Below, piece by piece: positions 46,756 to 62,761 of a stretch of DNA of 64,000 nucleotides; within the stretch, counting starts at the first letter, position 1; the number at the start of each line of letters is the position of its first letter. The translations under genes were made by a program, and so were the position numbers. Under the pieces are notes generated by a model. That model was not told the origin of the DNA, ran no database searches, and was given only the letters and a program-made list of their open reading frames with translations. The DNA comes from Mycolicibacterium parafortuitum (lineage in GTDB: Bacteria; Actinomycetota; Actinomycetes; Mycobacteriales; Mycobacteriaceae), in the NCBI RefSeq assembly GCF_002086815.1, contig NZ_MVID01000001.1, forward strand, positions 493,440 to 557,439, written 5' to 3'.

Positions 46756-46785
46756 GCATTACAAATTTTGGGCTGACTGTCAGCC
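46756..46785. promoter_or_regulatory. 30-bp inverted-repeat element, copy 1 (ALDH promoter)
   Basis: GCATTACA, then 14 bases, then TGTCAGCC. On the minus strand this gives CTGACA and TAATGC with 16 bases between, seven bases before the aldehyde dehydrogenase ATG. It shares arm sequence and exact spacing with the elements at 47357, 48597, 53440, 55360 and 62732. Confidence 0.75.
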
Positions 46786-46800
46786 CGTTTGGTCGATCGA

Positions 46801-47346
46801 TCAGTCGGTGGGGCGGATGCCGACCGCATGCCGCAGCTGGGCCAGGAACTGGTCGTCGTCGTCGGCGCGCACGATGTAGTGGCAGACCGCGACCCGGACC
46901 GCGGTGGCCGCCTTGACCGCGCCGTTGGCGCCGGGCAACAGCTTCTCCAACTGCGCGCGCATCAGCGGGATGATGTGGGACAGCCGGGCGATGACGACCT
47001 CGGGCTCGATGTCGACGAGCCGGACACCGGAATAGGACTGCTGGTACTCGACGATGAAGCGCATCGCCGCGTCGACGCGTTCGGTGCCGCGCAGGCCCGC
47101 GGTCGCCTTCAGGATCCCGGTCTCGAACATCTCGCGCTCGTACACGCCGAACGCCTCCAGCAGGGCCGCCTTGTCGGCGAACCAGCGATACAGCGTGGGG
47201 CGCGAGACACCGGCCTGTAGCGCGACCTCTGACAGGCTCAGTTTCGTCTGCCCGCTACGGCCGAGTACCTCGGCCGTAGCCACCAGGATGCGTTGTCGCG
47301 TCGAGATGTCGTCGGTGCCGTTGGTGTCACTGACAGGTTGGTTCAC
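46801..47346 (-). CDS. TetR-family regulator, paralog A
   Basis: The 181-residue regulator starts at GTG 47346. The helix-turn-helix region TKLSLSEVALQAGVSRPTLYRWFADK (residues about 34-59) is nearly identical to that of the regulator at 52890-53432 (AKLSLSEVASQAGVSRPTLYRYFADK), and the flanking RQRILVATAEVLGR and C-terminal AATAVRVAVCHYIVRADDDDQFLAQLRHA blocks also match. The ligand-binding halves diverge more. A 30-bp element lies 11 bp upstream of its start and another 16 bp past its stop, before the aldehyde dehydrogenase. It is a prime candidate to bind that element. Confidence 0.9.
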   Translation of the reverse strand: MNQPVSDTNGTDDISTRQRILVATAEVLGRSGQTKLSLSEVALQAGVSRPTLYRWFADKAALLEAFGVYEREMFETGILKATAGLRGTERVDAAMRFIVEYQQSYSGVRLVDIEPEVVIARLSHIIPLMRAQLEKLLPGANGAVKAATAVRVAVCHYIVRADDDDQFLAQLRHAVGIRPTD

Positions 47347-47356
47347 GTACCGGCCT

Positions 47357-47386
47357 CACTTACGGGTTCGGTGTCGATCGTAAAGC
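47357..47386. promoter_or_regulatory. 30-bp inverted-repeat element, copy 2 (TetR-A upstream region)
   Basis: CACTTACG, then 14 bases, then CGTAAAGC: TTACG and CGTAA are exact inverted repeats with the same 14-bp spacing as the other copies. It lies 10 bases upstream of the GTG start of the TetR paralog A gene, as expected for autoregulation. It is more degenerate in the outer bases. Confidence 0.6.
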
Positions 47387-47443: not shown

Positions 47444-48559
47444 TCACAAGCTCTTCTGCAACAGTGCGGTGGTCTCAAGGTCGTCGAGCGCCTCCAGCGC
47501 CCGTGCGAGTCCCTTGAGCGCGATCGTCTCGTCCTGCATACCGCCCATACCCGCGGTGATCAGCGCCGCCACGTACGGGTACAACGCGCTCTGCCGGTAC
47601 CGGTCCCACAGCTCGTCGCGGTCGAGGTCGGGGCCGCCCGCGGCCGACAGCGCGCCGCGGTACACGTCGAGCAGGTCGCGCTGGGTATCTCGTCGGCTCT
47701 CGGCGGTCATGCTGGTGATCAGGGTGTAGGCGAGCTCCCGGCTGGGGTGGCCACGCCGGACGGCCTGCCAGTCCAGCAGCCCGGGCTGCCCGTCCCGGAA
47801 GTACAGGTTGCCGGGGTGGGCGTCTCCGTGCATCACGGTGTGCGGTGCCCGGTCGATCAGCGCCGCGGCCGCCCGGTAGTTCTCGTCGATGAAGCGGCCG
47901 CGCCCGATCGGCAGGTCGGTGCGCTCGGCGAGCCTGCGGGCCGAGGTTTTCAGCAGTGGCGCGGTGAGCAGGGACGCACTGTCCTCCGACGCCGCGTACA
48001 GCCAGCCGGGAACTCTGCCCCAGAACGTCGCGTGCAACCGCGCGAGCAGTTCGACGACCTGTGCGGCCCGGTCGGCGTCGATCGGGTGCAGGGTGTCGGG
48101 AAACTCGCAGCCGCTGACCGCCAGGTCTTCCAGTATCAGTACGTAACGACCGGTGACCGGGCTGAACCGGCCGCCGTAGCAGCGGGGCAGCCCGGCCAGC
48201 TCCGGCGCGAGCAGGCGGTAGAAGCGGGTCTCGGTGTGGGCCAGGTTGCCCAGTTCTCCCATCAGCCGGGTCGCGACCGTCTCGGCGGCCATCTTGACGA
48301 ACACCGTCGACGGGACGTCGCGTCCGGTCAGGGCCAGGCGCGCCCGCGACGACGTTCCGGCGTCCCCGTCCAGAACCGAGACCGCGGTCACCGACCGGCC
48401 CAGCAGGGCCGACATCGCCGCCGGGTCGAGATCGGCGACGGTGCGCGGCATCGACAGCAGCCGCCCGATGAGCGTGTCGGTGCCGATTCGGCGCACCCCG
48501 CGACCAAGATGCGAGGCGAGGCCCAGCGCAGGTGCGATCCGATGGGTCAGGGCGGGCAA
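47444..48559 (-). CDS. Aminoglycoside-phosphotransferase-fold kinase (phosphotransferase family)
   Basis: The 371-residue protein probably starts at TTG 48559: AGGAGG lies six bases upstream, while earlier starts in the frame have no such site. The kinase-like fold shows Brenner's motif HGDAHPGNLYF near residue 230, the metal site LLDWQ near 250, and an N-lobe with VFVKMAA near 90. Such proteins phosphorylate small alcohols, or in mycobacteria take part in steroid- or acyl-related pathways as 'phosphotransferase family' proteins. The activity is open. It is divergent from the CoA transferase across a perfect copy of the 30-bp element. Confidence 0.82.
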   Translation of the reverse strand: MPALTHRIAPALGLASHLGRGVRRIGTDTLIGRLLSMPRTVADLDPAAMSALLGRSVTAVSVLDGDAGTSSRARLALTGRDVPSTVFVKMAAETVATRLMGELGNLAHTETRFYRLLAPELAGLPRCYGGRFSPVTGRYVLILEDLAVSGCEFPDTLHPIDADRAAQVVELLARLHATFWGRVPGWLYAASEDSASLLTAPLLKTSARRLAERTDLPIGRGRFIDENYRAAAALIDRAPHTVMHGDAHPGNLYFRDGQPGLLDWQAVRRGHPSRELAYTLITSMTAESRRDTQRDLLDVYRGALSAAGGPDLDRDELWDRYRQSALYPYVAALITAGMGGMQDETIALKGLARALEALDDLETTALLQKSL

Positions 48560-48596: not shown

Positions 48597-48626
48597 GCTT
48601 TACAAGATAGCGATGGACTGTAAAGC
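48597..48626. promoter_or_regulatory. 30-bp inverted-repeat element, copy 3 (perfect palindrome)
   Basis: GCTTTACA, then 14 bases, then TGTAAAGC: a perfect 8-bp inverted repeat between the divergent kinase (48559) and CoA transferase (48655) genes. It is the most symmetric copy and defines the consensus. TTTACA and TAAAGC, 16 bases apart, may act as -35 and -10 in either direction. Confidence 0.85.
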
Positions 48627-48654: not shown

Positions 48655-49845
48655 ATGGCGGGTCCACTGGAGGGCGTCCGGGTCGTCGAACTCGGGGTGT
48701 GGGTGGCCGGCCCGGCGGCCGGCGGCATCCTCGCGGACTGGGGTGCCGACGTCGTCAAGATCGAGCCCCCGGCCGGTGACCCGGCCCGCACCTTCGGCCG
48801 GATGCTCGGGATCCCACCCGCCGACCGCCACCACGTGAGCCCGCCGTTCCAGATGGACAACCGCAACAAGCGCAGTGTGGTGCTGGACCTGACGACGCCG
48901 GAGGGCCAGGACAGCGCGCGGGCGCTTCTCGAGGACGCCGACGTGTTCGTGACCAACATCAGGGCCGCCGCGCTGCAACGCATCGGGCTGGATTTCGAGG
49001 CCGTCGCGCGGATGAACCCGCGCCTGGTGTACGGGCTGATCACCGGGTACGGCGACGAAGGCCCCGACGCCGACCGGCCGGCCTACGACGTCGCGGCATT
49101 CTGGGCCAGGGCCGGCCTGGCCCACCTGTTGACGCGGCCCGGGCAGACACCGCCGTTCCAGCGTGGCGGCATGGGCGACCACACCGCGGGCACGACACTG
49201 GCGGGCGCGATCTGCGCCGCGCTCGTCGCCCGCGCGCGCACCGGGCAAGGGCAGCTGGTGACCACGTCGTTGTATCGGCAGGGCGCCTACACCGTCAGCT
49301 TCGACCTGACCACGTTCCTGATCACCGGCGCGCCGATCGCGATCGGCCAACGCGAGTCGATGGGTAACCCGTGCATGAACAACTACACCGCCGGCGACGG
49401 CAGGCGGTTCTGGCTGGTGGGCCTGCAGGGTGAGCGGCACTGGCCTGCGCTGTGCGCCGCGGTGCAGCGCACCGACTGGCTCGCCGACGAACGGTTCGCC
49501 ACCGGGCGGGCGCGGGCGGCCAACGCGCACACGCTGATCGCCGAGCTCGACGAGATCTTCGCGACCAGGACCCTCGACGAGTGGGCCGAGGTGTTCGCCG
49601 CGCACCCGGACGTGTTCTGGGCGCCGATCAACTCGATGGAGGACGTGCTCGCCGACGAGCAGTTCCACGCCGCGGGCGGGATCGTCTACGTGCCCGACGA
49701 CGAGGCCGGCAGCGTGCCGATGGTGGCCACCCCGGCGGACTTTCACGGTACCCCGGTCGAGATGCGCGCCAGCGCACCCGAACTCGGGCAACACACCGAT
49801 GAGGTGCTCGCCGAGATCGCTCAGCGGACGAACCGGTCCACGTAG
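48655..49845 (+). CDS. Class III (CaiB/BaiF) CoA transferase
   Basis: This 396-residue protein starts at ATG 48655 (MAGPLEGVRVVELG). The catalytic Asp is D145 in RPAYDVAAFW, and family marks include GADVVKIEPPAGDPAR, NKRSVVLDLTTPEGQD and GDHTAGTTLAGAICAAL. It would transfer CoA from an acyl-CoA such as succinyl-CoA to a carboxylic acid, activating an acid of the cluster without ATP. It converges on the sulfotransferase-like gene (25-bp overlap). AGGGAAGA upstream is a weak ribosome-binding site. It is more typical of the family than the Mct-like protein at 11430. Confidence 0.9.
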   Translation: MAGPLEGVRVVELGVWVAGPAAGGILADWGADVVKIEPPAGDPARTFGRMLGIPPADRHHVSPPFQMDNRNKRSVVLDLTTPEGQDSARALLEDADVFVTNIRAAALQRIGLDFEAVARMNPRLVYGLITGYGDEGPDADRPAYDVAAFWARAGLAHLLTRPGQTPPFQRGGMGDHTAGTTLAGAICAALVARARTGQGQLVTTSLYRQGAYTVSFDLTTFLITGAPIAIGQRESMGNPCMNNYTAGDGRRFWLVGLQGERHWPALCAAVQRTDWLADERFATGRARAANAHTLIAELDEIFATRTLDEWAEVFAAHPDVFWAPINSMEDVLADEQFHAAGGIVYVPDDEAGSVPMVATPADFHGTPVEMRASAPELGQHTDEVLAEIAQRTNRST

Positions 49846-51050
49846 GGCGCGAACCGCGCGCGCAGCTCGTCCTTGTCGAGCCCGAGATCCTCGGCGCGGT
49901 AGTCCACGGTGCCCAGCCGGCCCCGGGTGTGCCCGGTGAGATACTCGGCCACGGCCGCGCGGGACTCGTCGGTCGGGGAGTAGCCCGCCGTGTCCCAAAC
50001 CCGTTGCACCATCGCCAGATCGTCGGACATGAACTCGTCGAAGCGCACGTCGATGGTGCGTTCGGCAGGTAGCTTGTCGTGATCGCGCAGGCACGCCGAC
50101 AGCATCTCGTCGATGCGGTCGATCCAGTACCCGGCCACGGTGGGCACGTCGACCTCGTCGACGCTCATCCGCATCGTGTAGGTCATCATCGTGGCCATCG
50201 ACACCGATACGTCGACCGGATCGCGGTGGGTGACGATGAATGTCGCGTCCGGGAACACGTTCATGATCGGGACGAACTGCTCGAGGTGCTGCGGGCTCTT
50301 GAGCACCCACCGCCGCGCCCTGCCGTCCTGGTGCAGGAGTACCTGCAGCATCATGCGCAGGAACTGGTAGCCGGGCGTCTGATCGTTGTCGCGCAGGTAG
50401 TCCGACCACCGCGGCAGGTGGGTGAGGGTGGTGAAGAAGCCGCTGGCGAAATCCTGCACCATCAGCCCGATGTCCTCGTGGATGTGGTCGATCGTCATCT
50501 CGTGCATCAGCTGGAAATAGGGCATCAGCGTGTTCGAGATGTTCAGCGCGTCGCCGGTACGCTGCCGGCGTGGTTCGCTCGTGCCCTCCTCGCCCGGCGG
50601 GGGTAACGGTTCCTGCGCCTCCCAGTACGGGAGTGAACGCAGCGCCGGGTCGGCGGCGAGCAGGCTGTGCAAATGGGTGGTGCCGGTTCTGGGTAACCCG
50701 GCGATGATCAACGGCGCGGTGACGTCGATGTCGAACACCTCGGGGTGACGCTTGAGGTGGTCGACGACCTGTAGCCGGCCCTTGAGAAAGGTCAGCATCA
50801 GTGAGAACGCGTAGGTGCGCCCGAACGCGGTGAACCGGGGGAGTTCCTCGAACGCCTGCAGCAGCACCGCCATTCGTTCCCGGTAGCCCTGGTCGCCGAA
50901 ATCGGTCAGGCCGGTCTGTGCGGCCGCCTGCTCGTGCAGGGCGTCGGCGGTGAGCGGGCAGTACGGCGCCATCGCGGCCATGCCGTCGATGATCTGCCGG
51001 GCCTCCGGCGTGAACGTCGGGCGGGCCAGGTCGGTGATGTGCACGGCCAC
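49821..51050 (-). CDS. Sulfotransferase family protein
   Basis: The 409-residue protein has the PAPS-binding motifs: the 5'-phosphosulfate loop GLPRTGTTHLHSLL near residue 117 and the 3'-phosphate motif THRDPVDVSVS near residue 273. It belongs to the large mycobacterial sulfotransferase (Sulfotransfer_3) group, several of which sit in lipid and steroid pathways. GTG 51050 or GTG 51044 are both possible starts. It is divergent from the DUF1214 gene across a degenerate form of the 30-bp element. The acceptor is unknown; a hydroxylated hydrophobic compound fits the context. Confidence 0.85.
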   Translation of the reverse strand: MAVHITDLARPTFTPEARQIIDGMAAMAPYCPLTADALHEQAAAQTGLTDFGDQGYRERMAVLLQAFEELPRFTAFGRTYAFSLMLTFLKGRLQVVDHLKRHPEVFDIDVTAPLIIAGLPRTGTTHLHSLLAADPALRSLPYWEAQEPLPPPGEEGTSEPRRQRTGDALNISNTLMPYFQLMHEMTIDHIHEDIGLMVQDFASGFFTTLTHLPRWSDYLRDNDQTPGYQFLRMMLQVLLHQDGRARRWVLKSPQHLEQFVPIMNVFPDATFIVTHRDPVDVSVSMATMMTYTMRMSVDEVDVPTVAGYWIDRIDEMLSACLRDHDKLPAERTIDVRFDEFMSDDLAMVQRVWDTAGYSPTDESRAAVAEYLTGHTRGRLGTVDYRAEDLGLDKDELRARFAPYVDRFVR

Positions 51051-51077
51051 GGCGGGGACGCTACTCGACCATTACAG

Positions 51078-51118
51078 AACTTACAAGTAGTGTTGCGTTG
51101 TAAATTTGTCGATATCAT
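51078..51118. promoter_or_regulatory. Degenerate inverted-repeat element and putative leaderless promoter of the DUF1214 gene
   Basis: AACTTACA, 13 bases, TGTAAATT: similar arms to the 30-bp elements but one base shorter spacing. Downstream, TATCAT at 51113-51118 is a good -10 placed six bases before the ATG 51125, typical of leaderless mycobacterial mRNA. A second ATTACA lies at 51071. Confidence 0.5.
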
Positions 51119-51124: not shown

Positions 51125-52273
51125 ATGTCCTCCTCCGAGAGCGCGGCCGCATGGCGCGAATTGCTTTCCGCCTTCGCCGATTTCGACACGCTGTTCCTCG
51201 ACGGGCCGAAGGCGGTGCGCGGTCAGGCCGCGGTCGCCGAGGGCTACCAGAACCTTGCCACCATGCTGGCACTGTCGATGGACATGCACTTCTTCGCCGA
51301 TCCGGTGGCGCCGAGGTTCATCGACACGCTGACCCCGTTCCGGCCCGACCGGCGCTGGGGTGGCGACAACACCGACTGTTACTACGGGTACGCCGTGGTC
51401 GACCCGCGCCGGACCTATCGCGTCAGTGGCGTCCCGAACGACAGCGTCATGTACTCGATCACCGTGTACAACGAACCCGAGCCGGGTGCATGGCCGAACC
51501 GCACGGTCGGGCTGCTCTACGACGCGGACATGCCGATCGGTGAGGACGGGCGGTTCACCTGCCTGCTCGGCCCGCGCCGGCTGGACGGCTACACCGGACC
51601 GTTCATCGAGTTGGCTCCCGACGCCCGTGGCATCATCACCCGCGACTACCACGAACACCCGGAGGCCGGTGCCAGGGTGCAATGGGACATCGAGGTCGTC
51701 GACCACGCCGGGCTGCCCGTCGTGCCGGCGAAAACCGATGCCGACGTGGCGAAGTCGCTGCGGGCCACGCTGCGATTCGCCCAGGACATGTATGCGCTCA
51801 TTCCGCTGATCTTGATGGAACGCACACCCGTCGAACTGGCCGACGGGCAGTCGCTGAGCCTGAACACCCTGGCTCCGCCGTACCGGGCCGGCGCGGCGAC
51901 CCACGGCTTCTCGATGCAGGACGCGTGTTACAGCCTCGGTGGGTTCTCGCTGGAACCCGGCGAGGCGCTGGTCATCACGTCCACCCACCCGAAGTGCCGG
52001 TTCTGGAACCTGACCCTGTGGAATCAGTACATGGCCGCCCTCGACGTCGAATACGGCAGAGCCGGAATCAATTCCGGCTCTGCTGTGCCGAATTCCGATG
52101 GTTCGGTGACCATCGTCGTCAGCATGGAACAGCTCACGCATCCGAACGCGCTGTCGACCAAGGGGCATCCGGAGGGTTTGATGTCGTTCCGCTGGTTCCT
52201 CGCCGACGACCTGCCCGAGCACCCCGCCACGACAGTGGTGCCGGTCGACCAGGCGCCCACCGGCGTCAGCTGA
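51125..52273 (+). CDS. DUF1214-domain protein
   Basis: This 382-residue protein probably starts at ATG 51125. It has the DUF1214 C-terminal pattern: WNLTLWNQYMAALDVEYG, then INSGSAVPNSDGSVTIVVS near residue 313, and SFRWFLADDLPEHP. The N-terminal half has YYGYAVVDPRRTYRVSG and YSITVYNEPEPGAW, giving a beta-rich fold. No signal peptide is seen. DUF1214 proteins are often found beside steroid- and hydrocarbon-type pathways in actinobacteria; the function is not established. The gene converges with the TetR at 52266 by 8 bp. Confidence 0.82.
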   Translation: MSSSESAAAWRELLSAFADFDTLFLDGPKAVRGQAAVAEGYQNLATMLALSMDMHFFADPVAPRFIDTLTPFRPDRRWGGDNTDCYYGYAVVDPRRTYRVSGVPNDSVMYSITVYNEPEPGAWPNRTVGLLYDADMPIGEDGRFTCLLGPRRLDGYTGPFIELAPDARGIITRDYHEHPEAGARVQWDIEVVDHAGLPVVPAKTDADVAKSLRATLRFAQDMYALIPLILMERTPVELADGQSLSLNTLAPPYRAGAATHGFSMQDACYSLGGFSLEPGEALVITSTHPKCRFWNLTLWNQYMAALDVEYGRAGINSGSAVPNSDGSVTIVVSMEQLTHPNALSTKGHPEGLMSFRWFLADDLPEHPATTVVPVDQAPTGVS

Positions 52274-52880
52274 CGCCGTCGGTGCCCGCGGCGAGCACCG
52301 GCGCGATCCACTGCCGCAGATAGGAGCGCAGCGCCGCCGGCCCGCGCGGCGGGTCCGGCGGTGCGATCACCATCGACTGGATCATCCGGAGCAGGAATTC
52401 CACCAGATCGTCGAGCCGGCGGCCGGTGAAACCCAGGGCCGCCCAATCGAACCGGGTCTGCACGAGCATGCTCTTCGAACGCCGGACCGCGGCGGGCATC
52501 ACCATCTGTCTGCTCATCACGCGCATCCGGTCGGTCTCGAGCATCATCGCCAGCAGCGGTTCGCCGGGCAGCTTCTCGATCAGATACGCGACCGCGTCGA
52601 CGAGAAAATCCGTAGGGTCCTCCCGCATTTCCGCCATCCGGCCGATCCGCGCCGTCCAGTGACCCAGCGCGATCTCGGCTGCGGCGGCCAGGAGTTCGTC
52701 GGTCGAACCGAAGTGACGGTAGACGGTGGGCCGGGTGATGCCGAGGTCGGCGGCCACCTCTGTCAGGGTGGTCAACGCGGGCCCGCGGCGTTCGATGCTC
52801 GCCAGTGCGGCGGCGAGGATGCGTTGGCGCGCTTCGGTGTCGTCGGCCGGCGGTACGCCGCCCCACCCCTTGCGCCCCAT
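52266..52880 (-). CDS. TetR-family regulator, divergent type (C)
   Basis: The 204-residue regulator starts at ATG 52880 (MGRKGWGG), ten bases after the stop of the regulator gene at 52890 on the same strand, so the two are co-transcribed. The helix-turn-helix TTLTEVAADLGITRPTVYRHFGSTDELL (near residues 38-65) has the same general form but differs in the recognition helix (TRPTVYRHF versus SRPTLYRYF). It may bind another operator or respond to a different ligand. Its N-terminal tail is basic. Confidence 0.85.
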   Translation of the reverse strand: MGRKGWGGVPPADDTEARQRILAAALASIERRGPALTTLTEVAADLGITRPTVYRHFGSTDELLAAAAEIALGHWTARIGRMAEMREDPTDFLVDAVAYLIEKLPGEPLLAMMLETDRMRVMSRQMVMPAAVRRSKSMLVQTRFDWAALGFTGRRLDDLVEFLLRMIQSMVIAPPDPPRGPAALRSYLRQWIAPVLAAGTDGVS

Positions 52881-53439: not shown

Positions 53440-53469
53440 GCTTTACAAATTATCCGTCGAGTGTCACGC
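53440..53469. promoter_or_regulatory. 30-bp inverted-repeat element, copy 4 (TetR-B / ferredoxin)
   Basis: GCTTTACA, 14 bases, TGTCACGC between TetR-B (53432) and the ferredoxin gene (53477). Minus strand: GTGACA-16-TAAAGC, seven bases before TetR-B ATG. Plus strand: TTTACA-17-CACGCT, six bases before the ferredoxin GTG. Confidence 0.8.
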
Positions 53470-53476: not shown

Positions 53477-53668
53477 GTGAAGGTCGTGGTAGATCTCGCC
53501 AAGTGCACTGGCCATGGCATCTGTGAATCCATCGCCGAGGACGTGTTCGAGGTGCAGGACGACGGCACCCTCGTGATCCACGGCGCCGAGCGTCCCGGAT
53601 CGGACCGCGACCGCATGCGGCAGGCGGTCACCCAGTGCCCCGCGGCCGCACTCACCCTGCTCGACTGA
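53477..53668 (+). CDS. [3Fe-4S] ferredoxin
   Basis: The 63-residue ferredoxin has the pattern C10-x2-H13-x2-C16 and C54-Pro. The residue at the second cluster-Cys position of an ordinary 4Fe-4S ferredoxin is His, as in many P450-associated mycobacterial ferredoxins, so a 3Fe-4S cluster is likely. It starts at GTG 53477, six bases after a possible -10, thus perhaps leaderless. A P450 of the cluster (56130-57332) is the natural partner. A reductase gene is not present here. Confidence 0.92.
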   Translation: MKVVVDLAKCTGHGICESIAEDVFEVQDDGTLVIHGAERPGSDRDRMRQAVTQCPAAALTLLD

Positions 53669-53684: not shown

Positions 53685-54491
53685 TCAGCGCGGGCGCACC
53701 AGCACGGACTGCTGGATCGCCCCGATCGCGCCGGTCTGGTCGAAGAGCCGGCCCAGCGTGCTGCCGATTCCGTCCGGGCCGTAATTGGTTTCGGCACGGA
53801 TCCCGATCCACTCGCCCTCGGGCACCCGGTGGATGTGCACCGCGAGATCGGTGTTCAGGAACGTCCACTTGCGGATGTCGAGTTTGGTGCCGATGCCGTT
53901 CGCGTCGTCGGCGACGGCGAACAACCGCTGCAGCGGCGTCATCGTCTCGCCACTGACCAGGTCCACTTCGGGTTTGATCCACGACTCGCCCGGCCCGTCG
54001 CCCATCGGGACGGTCAGCCACCGCCAGTCCAGGCTGTGGACGTAGTTGCGGTCCCAGTCCTTCTTCATGTCGCGGCTGCGGGCCTCCTCGACGGGGCGCA
54101 GCGGCTCGGCCGGGGCGTGCTCCACGGCCGCGGTGTCGAGGGTCTGCAACCGCCAGCCACTGGCCTTGGCGACCGGCCGGGGAGCGCCGTCGGGCCCGGG
54201 CGCGAGCATCTCGGCGCTGACGAGCTCGATCTGCTTGCCGGAGCGTTCCCGGCGGGTGCGCACCCAGAAGTCGCCCTCGGCGGGCACCGGGCCGAGCAGG
54301 TCGACCAGGACCCGGCTCAACCGGGTGTCGTCGCGGCGCTCGCAGTGCTCCAGCCCGCGCACCAGCAGCGCCGAAACCGGTGCCGCGTGCTGGATCGCCG
54401 CCGACCACGTGCTGCGCACGAAATCCGTCGCGGCGAACTTCTCGCCGTGCTCGCCGTCGGCGTCGACGAGTTCGTAATAGGAATCGGACAC
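53685..54491 (-). CDS. Acyl-CoA thioesterase family protein (hotdog fold, TesB-like)
   Basis: The 268-residue protein probably starts at GTG 54491, with AAAGGG seven bases upstream; a TTG at 54497 is the other choice. It has the double hotdog layout: an N-terminal RSTWSAAIQHAAPVSALLVRGLEHCE segment, TRRERSGKQIELVSAEML, and a C-terminal half with the probable catalytic Asp in RLFAVADDANGIG and RKWTFLNTDLAVHIHRVPEGEWIGIRAET. It would hydrolyse an acyl-CoA of the pathway. It is co-directional with the SMP-30 gene behind it (16-bp gap). Confidence 0.82.
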   Translation of the reverse strand: MSDSYYELVDADGEHGEKFAATDFVRSTWSAAIQHAAPVSALLVRGLEHCERRDDTRLSRVLVDLLGPVPAEGDFWVRTRRERSGKQIELVSAEMLAPGPDGAPRPVAKASGWRLQTLDTAAVEHAPAEPLRPVEEARSRDMKKDWDRNYVHSLDWRWLTVPMGDGPGESWIKPEVDLVSGETMTPLQRLFAVADDANGIGTKLDIRKWTFLNTDLAVHIHRVPEGEWIGIRAETNYGPDGIGSTLGRLFDQTGAIGAIQQSVLVRPR

Positions 54492-54513
54492 GGCCAACCC
54501 TTTCAGTACCTGG

Positions 54514-55389: not shown

Positions 55390-55396
55390 TCGCTGG

Positions 55397-55426: not shown

Positions 55427-56133
55427 ACATGAAGAAGTACCACAGCCACACTCTGCTCTATCTGCACGAGACCATCGATCTCGGATCGGCGCGCGGCGAC
55501 GAGTTCGTCGCAGAGTTCAGCGCCGTGTACCACCCGATGATGAGCGAGCTCGGCGCCAGGCTGTTCGCGATCTGGGAGACGACCCCCTACAACGGGCACT
55601 GGCCGCAGGTCACGATCATCTGGGAGATCGACGCGTTCGCCGATTACGCCCGGATCGGGCGGGCCCAGGCGCGCGGCGGCAGCCACGAGTCCGCCGCGGC
55701 GAAGTGGTCGACCTTCCTGCGCGAGACCGGAGCCCGCGGTGAAGGCCGCATCATGTACGCCGGGCGGGCCAACAAGACGCTGGCCCAGCTGCAGGCCGCG
55801 GATTTCAAGGCCGGGTTGGTGATCCAGGAGATCATGCAGACCAAACCCGGCAGGCAGGACGATTACATCCGCGAGCTCGAACGCCTCTACGTGCCGTGGT
55901 CGGAGTCCACCGGGAAGCGCTGGCTCGGCTCGTTCATCACCACGTTCAGGTTCAACGAGGTGATTCATTACTGGGCGCTGGAAGGGGATTGGGACGTCTT
56001 CGAGAATCACTACCCGTCGTGGAAGGACAGCCCGCCCGCCGAGATCGTCACGTGGATGAGCGTGGCTCCCGCGCTGCGCGACGGGTGGGAGGACTCGATC
56101 CTGGCCGCTCTGCCCCCGTCGCCGCTGCAGTGA
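55423..56133 (+). CDS. Dimeric alpha/beta-barrel-like protein (NIPSNAP/EthD-like), function unknown
   Basis: The 236-residue protein starts at GTG 55423, with AGGAG six bases upstream (ATG 55429 has a spacing of 12). Two similar halves (residues about 1-115 and 120-235) have the beta-alpha-beta-beta-alpha-beta rhythm of dimeric alpha+beta barrels: YHSHTLLYLHETIDL...WPQVTIIWEID and LVIQEIMQTKPGRQDDYIRELE...FNEVIHYWALEGDW. This pattern suits NIPSNAP or EthD-like folds. EthD-like proteins often accompany P450s in degradation clusters. The stop overlaps the P450 start. No certain family name. Confidence 0.65.
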   Translation: MNMKKYHSHTLLYLHETIDLGSARGDEFVAEFSAVYHPMMSELGARLFAIWETTPYNGHWPQVTIIWEIDAFADYARIGRAQARGGSHESAAAKWSTFLRETGARGEGRIMYAGRANKTLAQLQAADFKAGLVIQEIMQTKPGRQDDYIRELERLYVPWSESTGKRWLGSFITTFRFNEVIHYWALEGDWDVFENHYPSWKDSPPAEIVTWMSVAPALRDGWEDSILAALPPSPLQ

Positions 56134-57332
56134 CGTACGACCCCTTCGATCCGGCGGTGATGGCCGACCCGCTGCCGTACTACCGCGTGCTGCGCGACCA
56201 GCACCCCGTCCACTACCTCGAGAAGTGGGACACCTACGCGCTGTCGCGGTTCGACGACATCTGGAACGTGTTGGAGATCAACGACGGAACGTTCGTCGCA
56301 TCGGAAGGGACGCTGCCCGCCGCGACGGTGCTGGCCACCCACAACGACGGCCCGGTGCCGGATCCGCCGCTGCATCCGATGCCGTTCCACGCGAACTTCG
56401 ACACCCCGATCTACGACGAGGTGCGCCGCTGCACGGCAGCACCGTTCCGGCCCAAGAACGTCACCAGGCTCGGCGAGCGGATCCGGGTGCTGGCGAACGA
56501 GCGCCTCGACGAGCTGCTGCCCAAGGGCCGGTTCGATCTGACACAGGACTACGGCGGGATCGTCGCGGCGTCGATCGTGTGCGAACTGGTCGGCCTGCCA
56601 ACGGATCTGGCCGACGACGTGCTCGCCACCGTCAATGCGGGCAGCCTCGCGCAGCCGGGCAGCGGGGTGGAGGTGGCCAATGCGCGGCCGGGCTACCTGG
56701 AGTACCTCACCCCGGTGGTCCAGCGGGCCAGGGCCGAGGGGCCCGGCGGTCTGCCCATCGTGGACAACCTGCTGGCCTACCGGCTGCCGGACGGTTCCGA
56801 GCTCTCCGACACCGAGGCCGCGGTGCAATTGCTCGGAGTGTTCATCGGCGGCACCGAAACCGTGCCGAAGATCGTCGCGCACGGGCTGTGGGAGCTCACG
56901 AGCCACCCCGATCAGCTCGCCGAGGTCCGGTCCGACCTCAGCGCCAACGTCGCGGTCGCCCGAGAGGAGATGATCCGGTACTGCGCACCCGCCCAGTGGT
57001 TCGCGCGAACCCTGCGTAGGCCGTTCACCCTGCACGACACCACGATCCGGCCAGGACAGCGGATCATCTCGCTCCTGGCATCCGCCAACCGCGACGAGCG
57101 CGAATACGACCGGCCGGACGAGTTCGTGTGGAACCGTCCGATCCCGCGGCTGCTGGCTTTCGGCAGGGGGCAACACTTCTGCCTGGGCGCACACCTGGCC
57201 CGCCTCGAGATCACGACCATGGTGACCGAATTCCTCAACCGGGTCCCTGACTTCACGGTCGACACCGCCGCGGCGTCGCGGCCGCCGTCGAGCTTCCAGT
57301 GGGGCTGGAACTCGCTACCCGTGGAGGTGTGA
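56130..57332 (+). CDS. Cytochrome P450
   Basis: This 400-residue P450 starts at GTG 56130, overlapping the previous stop. The heme loop LAFGRGQHFCLGAHLARLE is canonical with ligand C351, the I-helix is FIGGTETVPK, and the K-helix ExxR reads REEMIRY. The N-terminus (TYDPFDPAVMADPLPYYRVLRDQHPVHYLEKWDTYALSRF) is of the soluble bacterial type. It sits in the same operon as an ADH, SDR and Baeyer-Villiger-type enzyme, so hydroxylation of a ring or terminal carbon is likely the first step. The electron donor is probably the ferredoxin at 53477. Confidence 0.92.
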   Translation: MTYDPFDPAVMADPLPYYRVLRDQHPVHYLEKWDTYALSRFDDIWNVLEINDGTFVASEGTLPAATVLATHNDGPVPDPPLHPMPFHANFDTPIYDEVRRCTAAPFRPKNVTRLGERIRVLANERLDELLPKGRFDLTQDYGGIVAASIVCELVGLPTDLADDVLATVNAGSLAQPGSGVEVANARPGYLEYLTPVVQRARAEGPGGLPIVDNLLAYRLPDGSELSDTEAAVQLLGVFIGGTETVPKIVAHGLWELTSHPDQLAEVRSDLSANVAVAREEMIRYCAPAQWFARTLRRPFTLHDTTIRPGQRIISLLASANRDEREYDRPDEFVWNRPIPRLLAFGRGQHFCLGAHLARLEITTMVTEFLNRVPDFTVDTAAASRPPSSFQWGWNSLPVEV

Positions 57333-57333: not shown

Positions 57334-58302
57334 GTGTGGGCCTACCGACTCGTCGCGCCGTACACCTTCGAGAAAACCGATGTGCCGCAGCGCTCCCCGG
57401 AATCGCTGGGCGACGGTCAGGTGCTGCTGAGGTTCCTCGCCGCAGGCATCTGCGGAAGCGATCTGCCCGGGTTCCGCGGCGTCAAGGGCCGACTGCCGTT
57501 CGACACCGGCACGCAGGCCGCCGGGAAGGACGGCTTCCCGATCCACGAGATCGCCGGAGAGGTAATGGCCAGCCGCCATCCGGACCATCGGCCCGGCGAC
57601 CGCGTCGTCGGCTGGGCGTCGGGGTTCGACGGGCTGATGGAACAGGTGGCCGCCGACGGCGACGGCCTGGTCTCCTACGACCGGTCGCTGAGCCCGGCGC
57701 ACGCTGTCGCGCTGCAGCCGCTGGCGTGCGTGCTCTACGCCGTCGAGCAGATGCCCGACCTGACCGGTCGCCACGTCGCCGTGCTCGGCCAGGGCTCGAT
57801 CGGCCTGCTGTTCTCCTACGTCGCCAAGGTGGCCGGGGCCTCGCACGTCACCGGGGTGGACCCCGTGGACCGCAGCGACATCGGGCCCGCGTTCGGCGTG
57901 GACACCGTCGTGCGGGCCACCAGCGACCGGTGGGTGAGCCACCTGAGCGCCGGCGCCAAACCCGACGTCGTGATCGAGGCGGTCGGGCATCAGGTCGCGA
58001 CGCTCTCGCACGCGGTGGAGGCCGCCGCGTTCGGCGGGTTCGTCTTCTACTTCGGTGTGCCCGATGATGATTCGTATCCGATCAGCATGCGCACGATGCT
58101 GCGCAACAACCTGACCCTGAAGTCCGGTGTCACGATGGACCGCCGCCGAATGCTGCGACAGGCCGGCGAATTCACCGCCGCGCATCCCGGCCTGCTCGAC
58201 CGCTACCTGACGCACACCTACGGCGTCGACGAGGTACCGGCCGCCTTCGAGCTGGCGTCGCGGCCGGTGCCCGGGCGGATCAAGATCGCGATCGTGGAGT
58301 GA
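57334..58302 (+). CDS. Medium-chain (Zn-type) alcohol dehydrogenase family protein
   Basis: This 322-residue MDR protein starts at GTG 57334, one base after the P450 stop. The catalytic zinc Cys is in AGICGSDLPGF (near residue 40), a second ligand probably in FPIHEIAGEV (His-Glu near residue 70), and the NAD(P) motif VAVLGQGSIGLLFSYVA lies near residue 148. The lobe with four Cys that holds the structural zinc in classical ADHs is missing. It probably oxidises the alcohol made by the P450. The next gene begins one base after its stop. Confidence 0.88.
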   Translation: MWAYRLVAPYTFEKTDVPQRSPESLGDGQVLLRFLAAGICGSDLPGFRGVKGRLPFDTGTQAAGKDGFPIHEIAGEVMASRHPDHRPGDRVVGWASGFDGLMEQVAADGDGLVSYDRSLSPAHAVALQPLACVLYAVEQMPDLTGRHVAVLGQGSIGLLFSYVAKVAGASHVTGVDPVDRSDIGPAFGVDTVVRATSDRWVSHLSAGAKPDVVIEAVGHQVATLSHAVEAAAFGGFVFYFGVPDDDSYPISMRTMLRNNLTLKSGVTMDRRRMLRQAGEFTAAHPGLLDRYLTHTYGVDEVPAAFELASRPVPGRIKIAIVE

Positions 58303-58303: not shown

Positions 58304-59059
58304 ATGACCAGCAGACTGCAGGACGCGCTCGCCGGGAAACCCCACGTGTGGGGCGGCTGGGTGGTGGGGCCGACGGTGATCGGACCCGAGGAGTACGCCG
58401 CGGCGGGTTACGACTACGTCGGATTCGACGTCCAGCACGGGTATCTCAGCGATGCCGACGTCGCGCTGATGCTGCGCCGGCTCGAGCACGTGCCGATCGC
58501 GACGCTGGTGCGACTGCCCGATGCGGCACCGGCGCCGATCGGGCGGGTACTCGATGCCGGAGCCGACGGAGTGATCATCGCGATGGTCGAATCCGCCGCT
58601 GCGGCCGCGGCCGCGGTCGCCGCCAGCCGCTACGTCCCGGACGGAATCCGCAGCTTCGGCCCGTTGCGGGCGAGCCTCGGGCTGGACCCCGTGGAGTTGC
58701 AGCAGCGCGCGTCGGTGTTCGCGATGATCGAGACGGCCGCGGGACTCGCCGCCGTCGACGAGATCTGCGCGGTGGACGGGCTGGCCGGGATCTACGTCGG
58801 CCCGGCCGATCTCGCGCTGTCGATGGGACACGGCCCGACGCAGGCGTTCTCGACCCCCGAGGTGCTCGACGCGATCGGTCGTATCCAGCGGGTCGCGACC
58901 GAGGCCGGTGTGGTCAGCGCGATCCACGCCAACGTGGGCACGGTCGGCAAAAGCGTGGCGCAGAAGGGATTTCAGATGATCACGCTCGCCTCCGAATCGC
59001 AGGCGCTGCGCCGTGGCGCCGCCGCGCATCTCGCCGACGCGCGAGGGGAGACGCCCTGA
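58304..59059 (+). CDS. HpcH/HpaI-family aldolase or citrate lyase-like protein
   Basis: The 251-residue TIM-barrel protein begins MTSRLQDALAG at ATG 58304. Family blocks: YDYVGFDVQHGYLSD near residue 30, DAGADGVIIAMVESAAAAAAAV near 84 (metal site Glu in the MVES segment), SVFAMIETAAGLAAVDEI near 140 (second acidic ligand) and GIYVGPADLALSMG near 165. HpaI-type enzymes are class II aldolases that cut 4-hydroxy-2-oxo acids to pyruvate and an aldehyde. It would suit a late cleavage step. The stop overlaps the SDR start (TGATG). Confidence 0.85.
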   Translation: MTSRLQDALAGKPHVWGGWVVGPTVIGPEEYAAAGYDYVGFDVQHGYLSDADVALMLRRLEHVPIATLVRLPDAAPAPIGRVLDAGADGVIIAMVESAAAAAAAVAASRYVPDGIRSFGPLRASLGLDPVELQQRASVFAMIETAAGLAAVDEICAVDGLAGIYVGPADLALSMGHGPTQAFSTPEVLDAIGRIQRVATEAGVVSAIHANVGTVGKSVAQKGFQMITLASESQALRRGAAAHLADARGETP

Positions 59060-59784
59060 TGACGCCCGTCGCGCTGGTGACCGGCGCCGCCCGCGGGCAG
59101 GGCGCGGCGATCGTGCGCAGGCTGCTGCAGGACGGCTATCGGGTCGCGGCGTGTGACCTCCTCGTCGAGGACGTCACCCGCACCGTCGCCGACCTGGGCA
59201 CGGACCGAGCCGTCCCGGTGGAACTCGACGTCACCTCCGCCGAGCAGTGGGCGCGGGCGGTCGACGAGGTCATCGGGCACTTCGGGGAGATCACCGCGCT
59301 GGTGAACAACGCCGGTGTGCTGCACCGTGCCTCGATCGCCGACGAGACACCGTCGGGCTTCGAGGGAAGCTGGCGGGTGAACTGTCTCGGCCCGTTCCTC
59401 GGCATCCAGGCCACTCTGCCGCACCTGCGTGCGGCCGAGGGCGCGGCGATCGTGAACACCTGCAGCACCGGAGCGGTCCGCCCGTTCCCGAACCACGCCG
59501 CGTACGGATCGTCCAAGTGGGCGCTGCGCGGGCTCACCCAGGTCACCGCCGTCGAGCTCGCCACGTCCGGGATCAGGGTCAACGCGGTGTTCCCCGGGCC
59601 CGTCGAGACGCCGATGCTCGACGACACGACCCAGACCCGGCTCGCCGAGCGGGCACTGATGGGCCGGATCGGCAAGCCGATGGAGATCGCCGACGCGGTG
59701 GCCTTCCTGCTGTCCGAGCACGCCAGCTTCATCACCGGATCCGAGCTCATCGTCGACGGTGGGCAGTCCCTGCAGATTGGATGA
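59059..59784 (+). CDS. Short-chain dehydrogenase (SDR)
   Basis: The 241-residue SDR starts at ATG 59059. It has TGAARGQGAAI near residue 8, NNAG near 82, the Ser in NTCSTGAV near 135 and YGSSKWAL near 149 (YxxxK). The C-terminus ITGSELIVDGGQSLQIG is typical of classical SDRs. GQGA in place of GIGR or GLG is a minor variation, also seen in the mycofactocin type, but the overall length is that of a classical SDR and the mycofactocin insertion is absent. It may oxidise a secondary alcohol to the ketone used by the following monooxygenase. Overlap ATGA. Confidence 0.88.
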   Translation: MTPVALVTGAARGQGAAIVRRLLQDGYRVAACDLLVEDVTRTVADLGTDRAVPVELDVTSAEQWARAVDEVIGHFGEITALVNNAGVLHRASIADETPSGFEGSWRVNCLGPFLGIQATLPHLRAAEGAAIVNTCSTGAVRPFPNHAAYGSSKWALRGLTQVTAVELATSGIRVNAVFPGPVETPMLDDTTQTRLAERALMGRIGKPMEIADAVAFLLSEHASFITGSELIVDGGQSLQIG

Positions 59785-61304
59785 CGACCGTCATGGCCAG
59801 AGCTATGTCCGTGGGCATCATCGGTGCCGGTCCCGGTGGGCTGGCGCTCGGGATCTTCCTGCGCAAGGCGGGGTTCGACGATTTCACCATCTTCGACCGC
59901 GAGGACGGCGTCGGCGGGACCTGGCGGATCAACACCTATCCCGGCCTGGCCTGCGATGTGAAGTCGCACCTGTACTCGTACTCGTTCGACCTGAACCCGC
60001 ACTGGTCGCGGCTGTGGTCCGGCCAGCCGGAGATCCTGGAGTACTTCGAGCGGTGCGCACAACGCTACGAGCTGTCCGACAAGCTCCGGTTGAACACCGA
60101 GATCGTCTCGGCGACATGGCTTTCCGAACAGCACCAGTGGGTGCTGACCACGTCGACCGGTGAGGAACGCCGATTCGACATCGTCGTCTCGGCGATCGGG
60201 CTGTTCACCCAGCCAGTGATGCCCGACCTCGTCGAGGAGGAGCCGTTCACCGGGACGATCATGCACACCGCGAAATGGGACCACTCGGTGGATCTGAGCG
60301 GCGCCCGCGTGGCGGTGCTGGGGACGGGTTCCACCGCGGCCCAGCTGGTTCCGGAAGTGGCCAAGAAGGCGGCCAAGGTGTACTCGGTGCAGCGGTCCCC
60401 GACGTGGGTGCTGCCCAAGCCCGACCGCCCGTACACCGCGCGGGAGAAATGGATGTTCGCCCACATCCCGCTGGCGAAGAAGATCTACCGGACCCGGTTG
60501 TGGCTGCGCAGCGAGTCCAACATCTCGGTGATCGAGCACGGCAGCGACAAGACCGAGGAGTTCAAGAACATCGCGCTGCGCACGCTGGAGGCGACCGTCC
60601 CCGACGACGAGCTTCGCGCCAAGCTGACGCCCGACCATCCGCTCGGGTGCAAGCGGCTGGTGTTCGCGACGGACTACCTGCAGGCGCTGACGAAACCACA
60701 CGTCGAGGTCGTGTCCAGCCCGGCACGTGCGCTGCGGTCGCGGACTCTGGTCACCGAGGACGGCACCGAACTCGACGTCGATGTGGTGTTGTGCGCCACC
60801 GGATATGCCGCGGCCGATTATCTCGGGCAGATCGACGTCCGCGGCGTCGACGGTGCCGCGCTGGGTGAGACGTGGCGCAACGGTGCCTATGCCTATCTCG
60901 GGATGACCGTCCCGGGCTACCCCAACTTCTTCATGCTCTACGGACCCAACACCAACGTCGGCTCCAACAGCGTGATCTTCATCCTGGAGGCCCAGGCGCA
61001 CTACATCGTGCGGGCGCTCGCCCACATGCGGCGCAGGAACAGGTCCTACGTCGAGGTGCGGCCGGACGTGATGAAGCGCTACCTCGACAAGATCGACACC
61101 TGGATGCAGGGCACCGTCTGGCTGACCCGGTGTAGCAGCTACTTCCGCGCACCCAACGGCCGCGTCGTCACCCAGTGGCCCCGCAGCGCGCGGGACTTCT
61201 GGGCGCTGACCCGATGGTTCCGCCCCGGGGACTACGAGTTCAGCGAAACCTCCTGCCGGCGCGCACCGATCGACGTCGGCGCCCAGACCGCGGCGCAGCA
61301 GTGA
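59781..61304 (+). CDS. Flavin-containing monooxygenase, Baeyer-Villiger type
   Basis: The 507-residue protein has two dinucleotide-binding motifs: GIIGAGPGGLALG near residue 12 (FAD) and VAVLGTGSTAAQL near 177 (NADPH). Between them the Baeyer-Villiger fingerprint FxGxxxHxxxW appears as FTGTIMHTAKWD (residues 156-167). Ketones are oxidised to esters or lactones. The preceding dehydrogenases and following esterase and lactonase make this the logical ring-expansion step. The C-terminal tail (residues 470-507) is longer than in plain FMOs. Translation is coupled to the SDR (ATGA) and to the esterase (TGATG). Confidence 0.9.
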   Translation: MTTVMARAMSVGIIGAGPGGLALGIFLRKAGFDDFTIFDREDGVGGTWRINTYPGLACDVKSHLYSYSFDLNPHWSRLWSGQPEILEYFERCAQRYELSDKLRLNTEIVSATWLSEQHQWVLTTSTGEERRFDIVVSAIGLFTQPVMPDLVEEEPFTGTIMHTAKWDHSVDLSGARVAVLGTGSTAAQLVPEVAKKAAKVYSVQRSPTWVLPKPDRPYTAREKWMFAHIPLAKKIYRTRLWLRSESNISVIEHGSDKTEEFKNIALRTLEATVPDDELRAKLTPDHPLGCKRLVFATDYLQALTKPHVEVVSSPARALRSRTLVTEDGTELDVDVVLCATGYAAADYLGQIDVRGVDGAALGETWRNGAYAYLGMTVPGYPNFFMLYGPNTNVGSNSVIFILEAQAHYIVRALAHMRRRNRSYVEVRPDVMKRYLDKIDTWMQGTVWLTRCSSYFRAPNGRVVTQWPRSARDFWALTRWFRPGDYEFSETSCRRAPIDVGAQTAAQQ

Positions 61305-62233
61305 TGCGCGACATCGCCGAACGTCTGGACCCGGCGCTGCGGCACCTGATCGCCGCGCGCACCGATCTGTCCCCGCCCGTGCTCGGGGCGGTACGGGACT
61401 CACTGAATCAGCGCAGGGCCGAAACGGCCCGCACCGCGGACCTCATCGGCGTCGAGGTCGAACAGCGCGATGTGGCGGTGCCCGCCGGGCATGCGATCAC
61501 GGTGCGGATCTACCGAGGCGGGCCGCCGCAGTCCCCAGCGGTGATCTACTGCCATTCCGGGGCTTTCGTGCTGGGCAACCTCGACACCGACCACCGGCAG
61601 TGCATCGAGCTGGCTCGCCGGGGCCGCTGCACCGTGCTGTCGATGGATTACCGGCTGGCACCCGAGCATCCATATCCAGCCGCGCAGGAGGATGCGGCGG
61701 CGATCCTGGAGTGGGCTGTGCGCTGCGCGGCCGAACTGGGCATCGACGCGTCGGTGATCGCCGTGGCCGGAAGCAGCGCGGGCGCGGCGTTGGCGGCCGG
61801 GTTGGCGCAGCGCTCGGCGGCGGGGGAGGCGCCGCCGGTGGTGTTCCAGCTGTTGCACCAGCCGGTGCTCGACGACCGCGCGACCCCGTCGAAGCAGGAG
61901 TTCACCACCACGCCGGGTTTCGACGCCGAAGCGGTCGCGTGGATGTGGCGGCATTACGCCGGCGACGTTCCGCTGCCCGACTCCGCGGTGCCGTCACGCA
62001 TCACCGAGATGGCGTCGCTGCCGCCGGCGCTGATCACGTGTTCGGAGTTGGATCCGCTGCGTGACGAGGCGATCGACTATGCGCTGCGGCTGATGTGGGA
62101 AGGCGTGAGCGCCGAGCTGCACGTGATCAGCGGAACCTGTCATGGTTTCGATTCGCTGGTTCCGGAATGGGAGATCAGCACCCAGCTGTTCGAGATCCAG
62201 GGCGCGGCGCTGCGCAGGGCATTCCTACGCTGA
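61304..62233 (+). CDS. Alpha/beta-hydrolase fold-3 (HSL-type) esterase
   Basis: This 309-residue hydrolase has the nucleophile S158 in GSSAG, the acid probably in CSELDPLRDE near residue 247 and the His in GTCHGFD near 280. The oxyanion motif, normally HGGGF, reads HSGAF (H84), two changes from consensus, which may alter activity or substrate size. MDYRLAPEHPYPAA is a family hallmark. In the operon it would open the ester or lactone formed by the monooxygenase. It starts at ATG 61304 and converges with the SRPBCC gene by 9 bp. Confidence 0.88.
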   Translation: MRDIAERLDPALRHLIAARTDLSPPVLGAVRDSLNQRRAETARTADLIGVEVEQRDVAVPAGHAITVRIYRGGPPQSPAVIYCHSGAFVLGNLDTDHRQCIELARRGRCTVLSMDYRLAPEHPYPAAQEDAAAILEWAVRCAAELGIDASVIAVAGSSAGAALAAGLAQRSAAGEAPPVVFQLLHQPVLDDRATPSKQEFTTTPGFDAEAVAWMWRHYAGDVPLPDSAVPSRITEMASLPPALITCSELDPLRDEAIDYALRLMWEGVSAELHVISGTCHGFDSLVPEWEISTQLFEIQGAALRRAFLR

Positions 62234-62710
62234 GCTCTCCAGCTCCGCGAGCTCACGGGCGACCGCGGCGTGGTAGGCGTCGATGTTGGCGGGGTTCACG
62301 GTACGGAAGAAGCCGTCGGGTAGCGGTGAATCACGGTACGCCTCAACGGTCATGGTGCGGCTGAACAGCGTGACGCCGGGGCCGGGCTCGGTGAACTTGT
62401 ACTGCACGGTGATGCGGCCCGGCATCCCGCCGTTGCCGCCGGCGTCGTGGCCGAGGTTGCCGACGGAGTTGAACATCCACAGTTTGGGGCGCATCGCGAT
62501 CGCGAGGTGCCAGGTGAAGATGCGGGATCCGTCGGGCCCGGTCTCGGTCCAGGTGTCGCCGACCTCCAGGGGCAGCTTCCCGGGGGTCGTGCCGACGTGC
62601 GCGCTGCCCGGATACGTCTTCGTCCAGTTGACCGGATTGGTCACGAAGTCATAGATCACCTCAGGGGCCTGGGTGAACGCTGTCTCCGAGGTCGTCGTCA
62701 CGATTCCCAC
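62225..62710 (-). CDS. SRPBCC (START-like) family protein
   Basis: The 161-residue protein starts at GTG 62710. It has the SRPBCC helix-grip pattern: TTTSETAFTQAPEVIYDFVTNPVNWTKTYPG, GDTWTETGPDGSRIFTWHLAIAMRPKLWMF and GRITVQYKFTEPGPGVTLFSRTMTVEAYR, with a C-terminal helix PANIDAYHAAVARELAELE. Such proteins bind hydrophobic ligands and may transport or cyclise them. The 30-bp element lies upstream between it and the divergent acyl-CoA dehydrogenase. The leader from the possible -10 to the GTG is about 22 bp here, so not leaderless. Confidence 0.82.
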   Translation of the reverse strand: MGIVTTTSETAFTQAPEVIYDFVTNPVNWTKTYPGSAHVGTTPGKLPLEVGDTWTETGPDGSRIFTWHLAIAMRPKLWMFNSVGNLGHDAGGNGGMPGRITVQYKFTEPGPGVTLFSRTMTVEAYRDSPLPDGFFRTVNPANIDAYHAAVARELAELESSA

Positions 62711-62731
62711 GCTGGTCCGCCTTTCGCGGTC

Positions 62732-62761
62732 ACTTTACAAAGCATCGTCATAATGTCACGC
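62732..62761. promoter_or_regulatory. 30-bp inverted-repeat element, copy 6 (SRPBCC / acyl-CoA dehydrogenase)
   Basis: ACTTTACA, 14 bases, TGTCACGC between the divergent SRPBCC (62710) and ACAD (62806) genes. Minus strand: GTGACA-16-TAAAGT. Plus strand: TTTACA-17-CACGCT, with the gene start 44 bases on. Confidence 0.8.

Follow-up and report, generated by a model that had tools for sequence, protein, structure and literature searches.

By analogy, and as far as the excerpted text of its description goes, the closest studied case in mechanism to the element described here is Rv0078 (EthR2) of Mycobacterium tuberculosis. The element is a split palindrome of the form CTTTACA-N14-TGTMAMG (half-site approximately AGCKTKACA, 14-bp gap), which recurs in a gene cluster of Mycolicibacterium parafortuitum encoding two related TetR proteins, TetR-A and TetR-B. 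The cluster lies in a stretch of 64,000 nucleotides (RefSeq assembly GCF_002086815.1, contig NZ_MVID01000001.1, positions 493,440 to 557,439), hereafter called the window. According to the excerpts of PMC6016246, the Rv0078 operator lies over both starts of the divergent genes Rv0077c and Rv0078 and holds two dimers on one site; the recognition helices are 36.4 Å apart on the DNA, and the crystallized DNA begins TTTACAAG. The likeness would consist in a TetR repressor located between divergent genes and in two dimers on one site, which are likewise predicted here. However, the Rv0078 operator described in these excerpts measures 21 bp and contains two 10-bp repeats, with dimers staggered by 7 bp, whereas a gap of 14 bp separates the two conserved arms here, and copies of the site stand at many promoters. 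A near-contiguous repeat of about 21 bp was not found at our sites, since positions 12–17 of their logo (the C of CTTTACA being 1) are unconserved, at 0.00–0.20 bit. TetR-B aligns to Rv0078 over residues 12–76 only (E 1.7e-5).

Another mycobacterial TetR regulon, that of motif X, was assigned in Mycobacterium sp. VKM Ac-1817D to the Rv0767c orthologue G155_05115, for which the excerpted text proposes autoregulation; like the present cluster, it covers P450s and aldehyde and short-chain dehydrogenases (PMC6593523). The KstR and KstR2 regulons share with our locus the control by mycobacterial TetR repressors, in their case of steroid catabolism. KstR was rejected as the regulator: the single match of its pattern TNNAACNNGTTNNA, as given in an earlier note on the window, fell within the P450 gene of the window, at 56262, and none of the sites carried it. 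Bidirectional promoters of bacteria were reportedly described by Warman et al. 2021. The common trait, as far as excerpts of a citing paper (PMC12340889) go, is divergent transcription from symmetric DNA; here, in contrast, the −35 and −10 elements are predicted to overlap, the predicted starts are 45 bp apart, and the arrangement would be coupled to TetR.

Judging from the sequence, TetR-A and TetR-B likely repress from this palindrome, their predicted operator, which probably lies inside an overlapping pair of divergent promoters. A regulon spanning the genus is thereby outlined for one TetR subfamily, with regulator, operator, and start sites predicted in 151 of 198 sampled genomes. No description of the motif or of the TetR-A/B pair turned up in the open literature searched.

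The split palindrome is real. The earlier note had listed six sites with shared inverted arms, and its consensus with a 14-base spacer recovered five of them in the window at up to three mismatches. Those at 48597, 53440, 55360, and 62732 had none and that at 46756 had two, whereas 47357 was not found. The search returned nine rows, palindromic sites being counted on both strands, and 0 of 100 shuffles reached nine (shuffle mean 1.3, largest 5). When spacers of 0–30 were tried in the window, error-free pairs were obtained for 14 alone (n = 4, at 48598, 53441, 55361, and 62733), and the arms at 48597 formed a perfect 8/8 inverted repeat; the exact spacing and the symmetry reported in the note were thereby confirmed. 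Its observation that the other 46 kb hold no copy was also borne out, as bases 1–46000 gave 0, 0, 0, and 1 matches at 0, 1, 2, and 3 mismatches. A degenerate form with a 13-bp spacer, placed by the note at 51078, was not conserved and gave way to an overlapping 14-bp form at 51070. The sites in the window are as follows.

46756..46785, minus strand: site before the aldehyde dehydrogenase (ALDH) gene, degenerate here (2 mismatches); arm-matrix score 18.3, inside the shuffle range
47357..47386, minus strand: marginal copy before TetR-A, CACTTACG/CGTAAAGC, absent at up to 3 mismatches; score 8.7, inside the shuffle range
48597..48626, no strand: symmetric site with the APH gene on the left and the CoA-transferase (CaiB) gene on the right; perfect inverted repeat, 0 mismatches
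51069..51098 (copy at 51070), no strand: weak 14-bp-spaced copy at the sulfotransferase and DUF1214 genes; window score 15.8, inside the shuffle range
53440..53469, plus strand: site flanked by TetR-B on the left, starting at 53432, and by ferredoxin on the right, starting at 53477, 0 mismatches; both starts at position 37
55360..55389, plus strand: site with the SMP-30 gene on the left (start 55353, position 36) and the genes for NIPSNAP, P450, alcohol dehydrogenase, aldolase, short-chain dehydrogenase, Baeyer-Villiger monooxygenase, and hydrolase on the right, 0 mismatches
62732..62761, plus strand: site with the gene for a 161-aa protein without Pfam match on the left and the acyl-CoA dehydrogenase (ACAD) gene on the right, 0 mismatches

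With the arm matrix, 50 mononucleotide shuffles of 46 kb each scored up to 19.4; the sites at 46756, 51070, and 47357 therefore rest on conservation and not on score. The orthologous ALDH-promoter site had a spacer of 14 in 26/26 rows (25 distinct loci, window included), and the ALDH start codon at 46748 corresponds to mirror position 37 of the 46756 site. The copy at 51070 was weakly conserved in 5/5 rows (4 distinct loci, window included; scores 14.8–15.8), while other loci gave no row. Of 30 rows, 11 (10/29 distinct loci) carried the form at 47357 upstream of TetR-A, and one further row (L108) had a strong copy 124 bases upstream of TetR-A. The 47357 copy is indistinguishable from chance and probably not a strong site; transcription of TetR-A, located behind the APH gene on the same strand, may begin at the 48597 promoter. 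At the latter site, the spacer of 14 and the TTACA/TGTAA arms were retained in 29 of 30 rows (28/29 distinct loci).

Genome-wide (6.14 Mb, 88 contigs), the exact motif occupied six places against 0.017 expected from composition: four in the window, C1:480619 (12.8 kb left of the window), and C18:6768. In the relative G122 (L224), the C18-type gene pair and its site follow the ACAD gene downstream on a single contig; because of this gene order, C18 may continue the contig of the window, which ends at window position 64000.

With TGTCACG as the right arm and the gap left free between 6 and 22, 60 genomes gave 146 matches, of which 141 had a gap of 14; the other gaps were 9, 15, 18, 21, and 22, and the gap-15 match adjoins a TetR gene. 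Most copies in the fetched loci were asymmetric, with TTTACA on the left and TGTCAC on the right (150 such copies versus six with TGTAAAG). In the weighted logo of these asymmetric copies (150 distinct ones, with an effective number of 51), A9, A20, A19, C29, and T30 were conserved beyond the searched letters, with G0 and A−1 weaker. The best symmetry center of the logo was the whole-site dyad at 14.5 (score 3.0, as compared with 1.5 at 15.5 and −1.0 at 25.0), and no convincing symmetry inside a single arm, as for one dimer per arm, was found in it. At all 50 sites with a recognized TetR-A/B neighbor (44 TetR-B, 6 TetR-A), this neighbor was on the left, so the orientation of the site seems to matter.

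A scan of the genome and its relatives, proposed in the earlier note, revealed the exact motif in 151 of 198 genomes of the genus (own genome included), where about three exact chance matches were expected in total and the control pattern read backward gave 0–2 per genome. A TetR-B homologue (E <= 1e-20) was present in 164 of the 198. Motif and TetR occurred together in 151 genomes, the motif without TetR in 0, TetR without the motif in 13, and neither in 34, of which 14 were deduced to be TetR-less by absence from the list of 164; the Fisher value for this co-occurrence was 7e-28, shared ancestry being ignored. The NIPSNAP protein (E <= 1e-30) was found in 126 of the 198 genomes, all motif-positive. 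Since 25 motif-positive genomes were without NIPSNAP and none without TetR, the motif tracks the regulator more closely than this enzyme. At the order level, a match was present in 38 of the 42 genomes from the same genus and, outside it, in 1 of 355; this lone match (G276) was a TGTCAAG variant. These counts, together with the site directly before TetR-B, argue for the single regulon under internally encoded TetR proteins that the earlier note had predicted. The genus-wide motif and the coincidence of the sites with likely divergent promoters had been missed there.

Five of the 13 genomes with TetR and without the motif had a copy at 1–2 mismatches inside the 3.5-kb locus. Variant recognition helices were rejected as the cause of these 13 cases, because the helix was invariant in 101/101 tblastn matches, some of them from overlapping loci. 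In one of these motif-less genomes, the TetR copy (G077:C101:2427-2948) contained an internal TGA, which is consistent with a joint decay of regulator and sites. The genome G066 gave 20 match rows at 19 places on three contigs; on its C4 (L218:2660-12323), a copy stands before an uptake operon of YrbE/Mce type, whose two scanned genes had MlaE and Mce4_CUP1 domains.

Three TetR proteins are encoded in the region.

46801..47346, minus strand: TetR-A, TetR_N domain; 60% identical to TetR-B, same recognition helix
52890..53432, minus strand: TetR-B, TetR_N domain; likely the cognate repressor, in an autoregulated position
52266..52880, minus strand: TetR-C, the third TetR, which follows TetR-B immediately in the same orientation and resembles it in the recognition helix

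TetR-A and TetR-B share the recognition helix VSRPTLYR[WY]F. The AlphaFold model of TetR-B (27 sequences) was all-helical, with a predicted local distance difference test (pLDDT) value of 77, and the 50 Foldseek matches listed of 926 included Rv0078, FasR, KstR, and MtrR, with template modeling (TM) scores (query) of 0.47–0.69. TetR-B therefore has both the TetR_N helix-turn-helix (HTH) domain and the all-helical fold of the TetR family; TetR_N is also present in TetR-A. The palindrome at 53440 lies between the regulator TetR-B and a divergent target, ferredoxin. The helix of TetR-C reads ITRPTVYRHF, as compared with VSRPTLYRYF in TetR-B, and over 193 aa TetR-C has 38% identity with a TetR encoded about 7 kb from an Rv0768-type ALDH on C12.

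The other genes of the region are listed below.

45261..46748, minus strand: ALDH, Rv0768-like (below the cut-off of that model)
47444..48559, minus strand: APH/EcKL-type phosphotransferase
48655..49845, plus strand: family III CoA-transferase (CaiB)
49821..51050, minus strand: sulfotransferase
51125..52273, plus strand: DUF1214 protein
53477..53668, plus strand: ferredoxin
53685..54497, minus strand: acyl-CoA thioesterase
54514..55353, minus strand: SMP-30/gluconolactonase family
55423..56133, plus strand: NIPSNAP-like protein (below the Pfam cut-off)
56130..57332, plus strand: cytochrome P450; closest solved relatives CYP130 and CYP125-type
57334..58302, plus strand: zinc-type alcohol dehydrogenase
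58304..59059, plus strand: HpcH/HpaI aldolase family
59059..59784, plus strand: short-chain dehydrogenase
59781..61304, plus strand: Baeyer-Villiger-type flavin monooxygenase
61175..62233, plus strand: alpha/beta hydrolase, open frame (the actual start probably lies further downstream)
62225..62710, minus strand: 161-aa gene without Pfam match
62785..63945, plus strand: ACAD, open frame

This gene content suits the predicted degradation of a hydrophobic cyclic compound; a literature search for the NIPSNAP/Baeyer-Villiger combination found no paper.

The positions of start codons were compared over 154 distinct sites, with a coding frame on the right in 135 and on the left in 129 and mirror numbering on the left; the loci had been fetched partly by the motif and partly by TetR-B, and the counts of site neighbors are therefore inflated (TetR-B, for instance, stood left of 44/154 sites). 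An in-frame ATG or GTG occurred at position 37 in 40 of 135 cases on the right and 50 of 129 on the left, while the median position had one. The in-frame GTG that falls within the right arm (33 cases, at position 21) was excluded as a start. Starts at positions 36–38 were typical of TetR-B (40/44), ALDH (13/14), P450 on the right (33/34), and TetR-A (4/6). They were also recorded for the C18-type gene (4/14), ferredoxin (3/11), SMP-30 (8/35), and unassigned genes (right 2/32, left 2/12). With a start at 37, an ANNNT ended seven bases upstream in 40/40 cases on the right and 43/47 on the left, the A being fixed by the search and the T alone informative; with a left start at 36, ANNNT ended at 29 in 7/10. 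In the excerpts of PMC6448022, ANNNT lies at −13 to −6 in M. smegmatis, with two main spacings, and 24% of the transcripts are leaderless. The mirror starts and the ANNNT register (−11 to −7) of overlapping divergent leaderless promoters were thus found for part of the targets, and such promoters are probably present at least before TetR-B, ALDH, P450, and ferredoxin. Right of the window site at 55360, the first start is that of NIPSNAP (55423, position 63); a GTG at 55396 was rejected as a start, being out of frame with NIPSNAP.

Besides the inflated neighbor counts and the fixed A of ANNNT, a number of observations weigh against the reading of the site as a TetR-A/B operator within divergent promoters. 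The asymmetry of the copies, including the same-strand A at the mirror positions 9 and 20, is not required by a two-fold operator. Six motif-positive genomes (G056, G075, G138, G161, G164, and G194) had a single match, which in G161 was on a different contig from its TetR, and 8 of the 13 genomes with TetR and without the exact motif had no copy at 1–2 mismatches in the locus. TetR-C, by its helix and position, may be the regulator of the site and remains a candidate. As for the promoters, the start codons formed other peaks (right 63, n = 18; left 31, n = 18; left 97, n = 16), and none fell at 36–38 for NIPSNAP (0/30), ACAD (0/5), APH (0/7), CaiB (0/7), or the 161-aa gene (0/8). Right starts at 36 (n = 2) and 38 (n = 1) were out of register, and at left start 38 ANNNT ended at 30, eight bases upstream, in 11/11 cases. 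An ANNNT ending at 30 was also common at sites without a start at 36–38 (right 79/92, left 31/61), and the −10 elements in the start-37 register were without the first T of TANNNT. The −35 part of the promoter reading is further weakened by earlier studies, which, according to the excerpts of PMC6448022, found no SigA −35 consensus in mycobacteria.

In the mechanism that we prefer, a TetR-A/B-type repressor would bind the promoter-operator and shut both neighboring transcription units at once, until released by a predicted catabolite. The inducer would be an intermediate of the degradation of a hydrophobic cyclic compound through P450, Baeyer-Villiger, and beta-oxidation steps. The piled-up start codons may be the transcription starts of leaderless mRNAs, and each arm, read along one strand, could serve as an extended −10 (TGT-MAMGCT) and, along the opposite strand, as a −35 (KTKACA), with a distance of 17 bp between −35 and −10. 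The repressor is predicted to bind as two dimers, because the arm centers are 22 bp (about 75 Å) apart, as compared with the 36.4 Å helix distance in the DNA-bound Rv0078, which should be too far for a single dimer to span. More tentatively, the 9-bp arm may be read in three ways, as a TetR half-site, an extended −10 (TGTMAMGCT), and a −35 (AGCKTKACA). The symmetric 32-bp module would then be an operator and two interlocked leaderless promoters, and TetR-A/B would recognize the promoter itself, the module having been copied to up to 19 places in a sampled genome, there also before the YrbE/Mce operon. If true, this would provide a compact, testable case in which an operator and divergent promoters share one symmetric code. 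In addition, the sites point to a route of catabolism through P450, a Baeyer-Villiger monooxygenase, an SMP-30 family protein, and ACAD, joined in one genome by uptake through Mce; derepression could be used to find the substrate of this route.

The mirror start codons, the ANNNT register, the possible reading of the arms as an extended −10 and a −35 at a distance of 17 bp, and the persistent asymmetry of the copies would also be explained if the palindrome consisted of overlapping divergent promoters alone, its symmetry arising from matching −10 and −35 elements, with TetR bound elsewhere or not at all. We consider this unlikely: promoters of a general kind would not be expected to depend on a single TetR gene, whereas the motif was found in 151 of the 164 genomes with TetR, in none of the 34 without it, and in 1 of the 355 others, and the symmetric APH/CaiB site was kept in 29/30 rows although none of its recognized genes starts at 36–38. 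It is likewise doubtful that the site is read by another regulator traveling with the cluster, such as TetR-C or an alternative sigma factor, while TetR-A/B bind other DNA. Genes that always move as a group cannot be told apart by co-occurrence; TetR-C, encoded immediately after TetR-B, resembles it in the recognition helix; and the asymmetry would suit a sigma factor. However, the motif persists in the 25 genomes without the NIPSNAP marker and in none without TetR-A/B, which stand beside 50 of the 154 sites in a sample biased to TetR-B, and no sigma factor was present among the proteins scanned with Pfam.

The site is very unlikely to be motif X, which was published for phytosterol-induced genes and assigned to the Rv0767c orthologue. 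On our own contig C12, a TetR beside an Rv0768-type ALDH occupies what we take, by gene order, to be the Rv0767c position. Its promoter has GGACA-N2-TGTCC repeats and no copy of the present motif, and the protein aligns to TetR-B over 48 HTH residues alone (35%). The excerpts of PMC10312376 describe the Rv0767c sites of M. tuberculosis as rich in GAC/GTC and poor in TAA/TTA, the opposite of the present motif. On these two grounds, the GGACA/TGTCC promoter and the trimer content, the regulon was taken as different from that of motif X, whose logo could not be read, and Rv0767c was rejected as its regulator, even though the excerpted regulon combines the same kinds of genes (P450s, aldehyde and short-chain dehydrogenases, and TetRs) with a palindromic motif (PMC6593523). 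A predicted Rv0767c motif is also given, in the form of a logo, in PMC4482099. Finally, an artifact of chance or of the base composition of AT-rich promoters is suggested by the three-mismatch counts in our own genome (89 and 87), which were below those of the reversed-pattern control (160 and 167). For the exact copies this explanation is refuted, and we give it next to no weight, in view of the six exact places against 0.017 expected and the spacing of 14 in 141/146 matches.

The same comparison with the reversed control indicates that the loose genomic copies are noise. The one-mismatch places in our own genome (n = 4; L007–L010) were not far from the 0.9 expected. Among the copies with two mismatches, that at C12:209384 (L018:1501-1528), CGTGACA-N14-TGTCACG, is fully symmetric with the other arm type and may be due to chance. 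On the same contig, at approximately 175079–175329 (L171:10080-10330), the GGACA-N2-TGTCC palindromes of the TetR gene beside the Rv0768-type ALDH are located near both gene starts and represent a candidate for the published motif X. A further two-mismatch copy, at C1:285306 (L013:1501-1528), is located directly before a 391-aa open frame that appears thiolase-like by eye.

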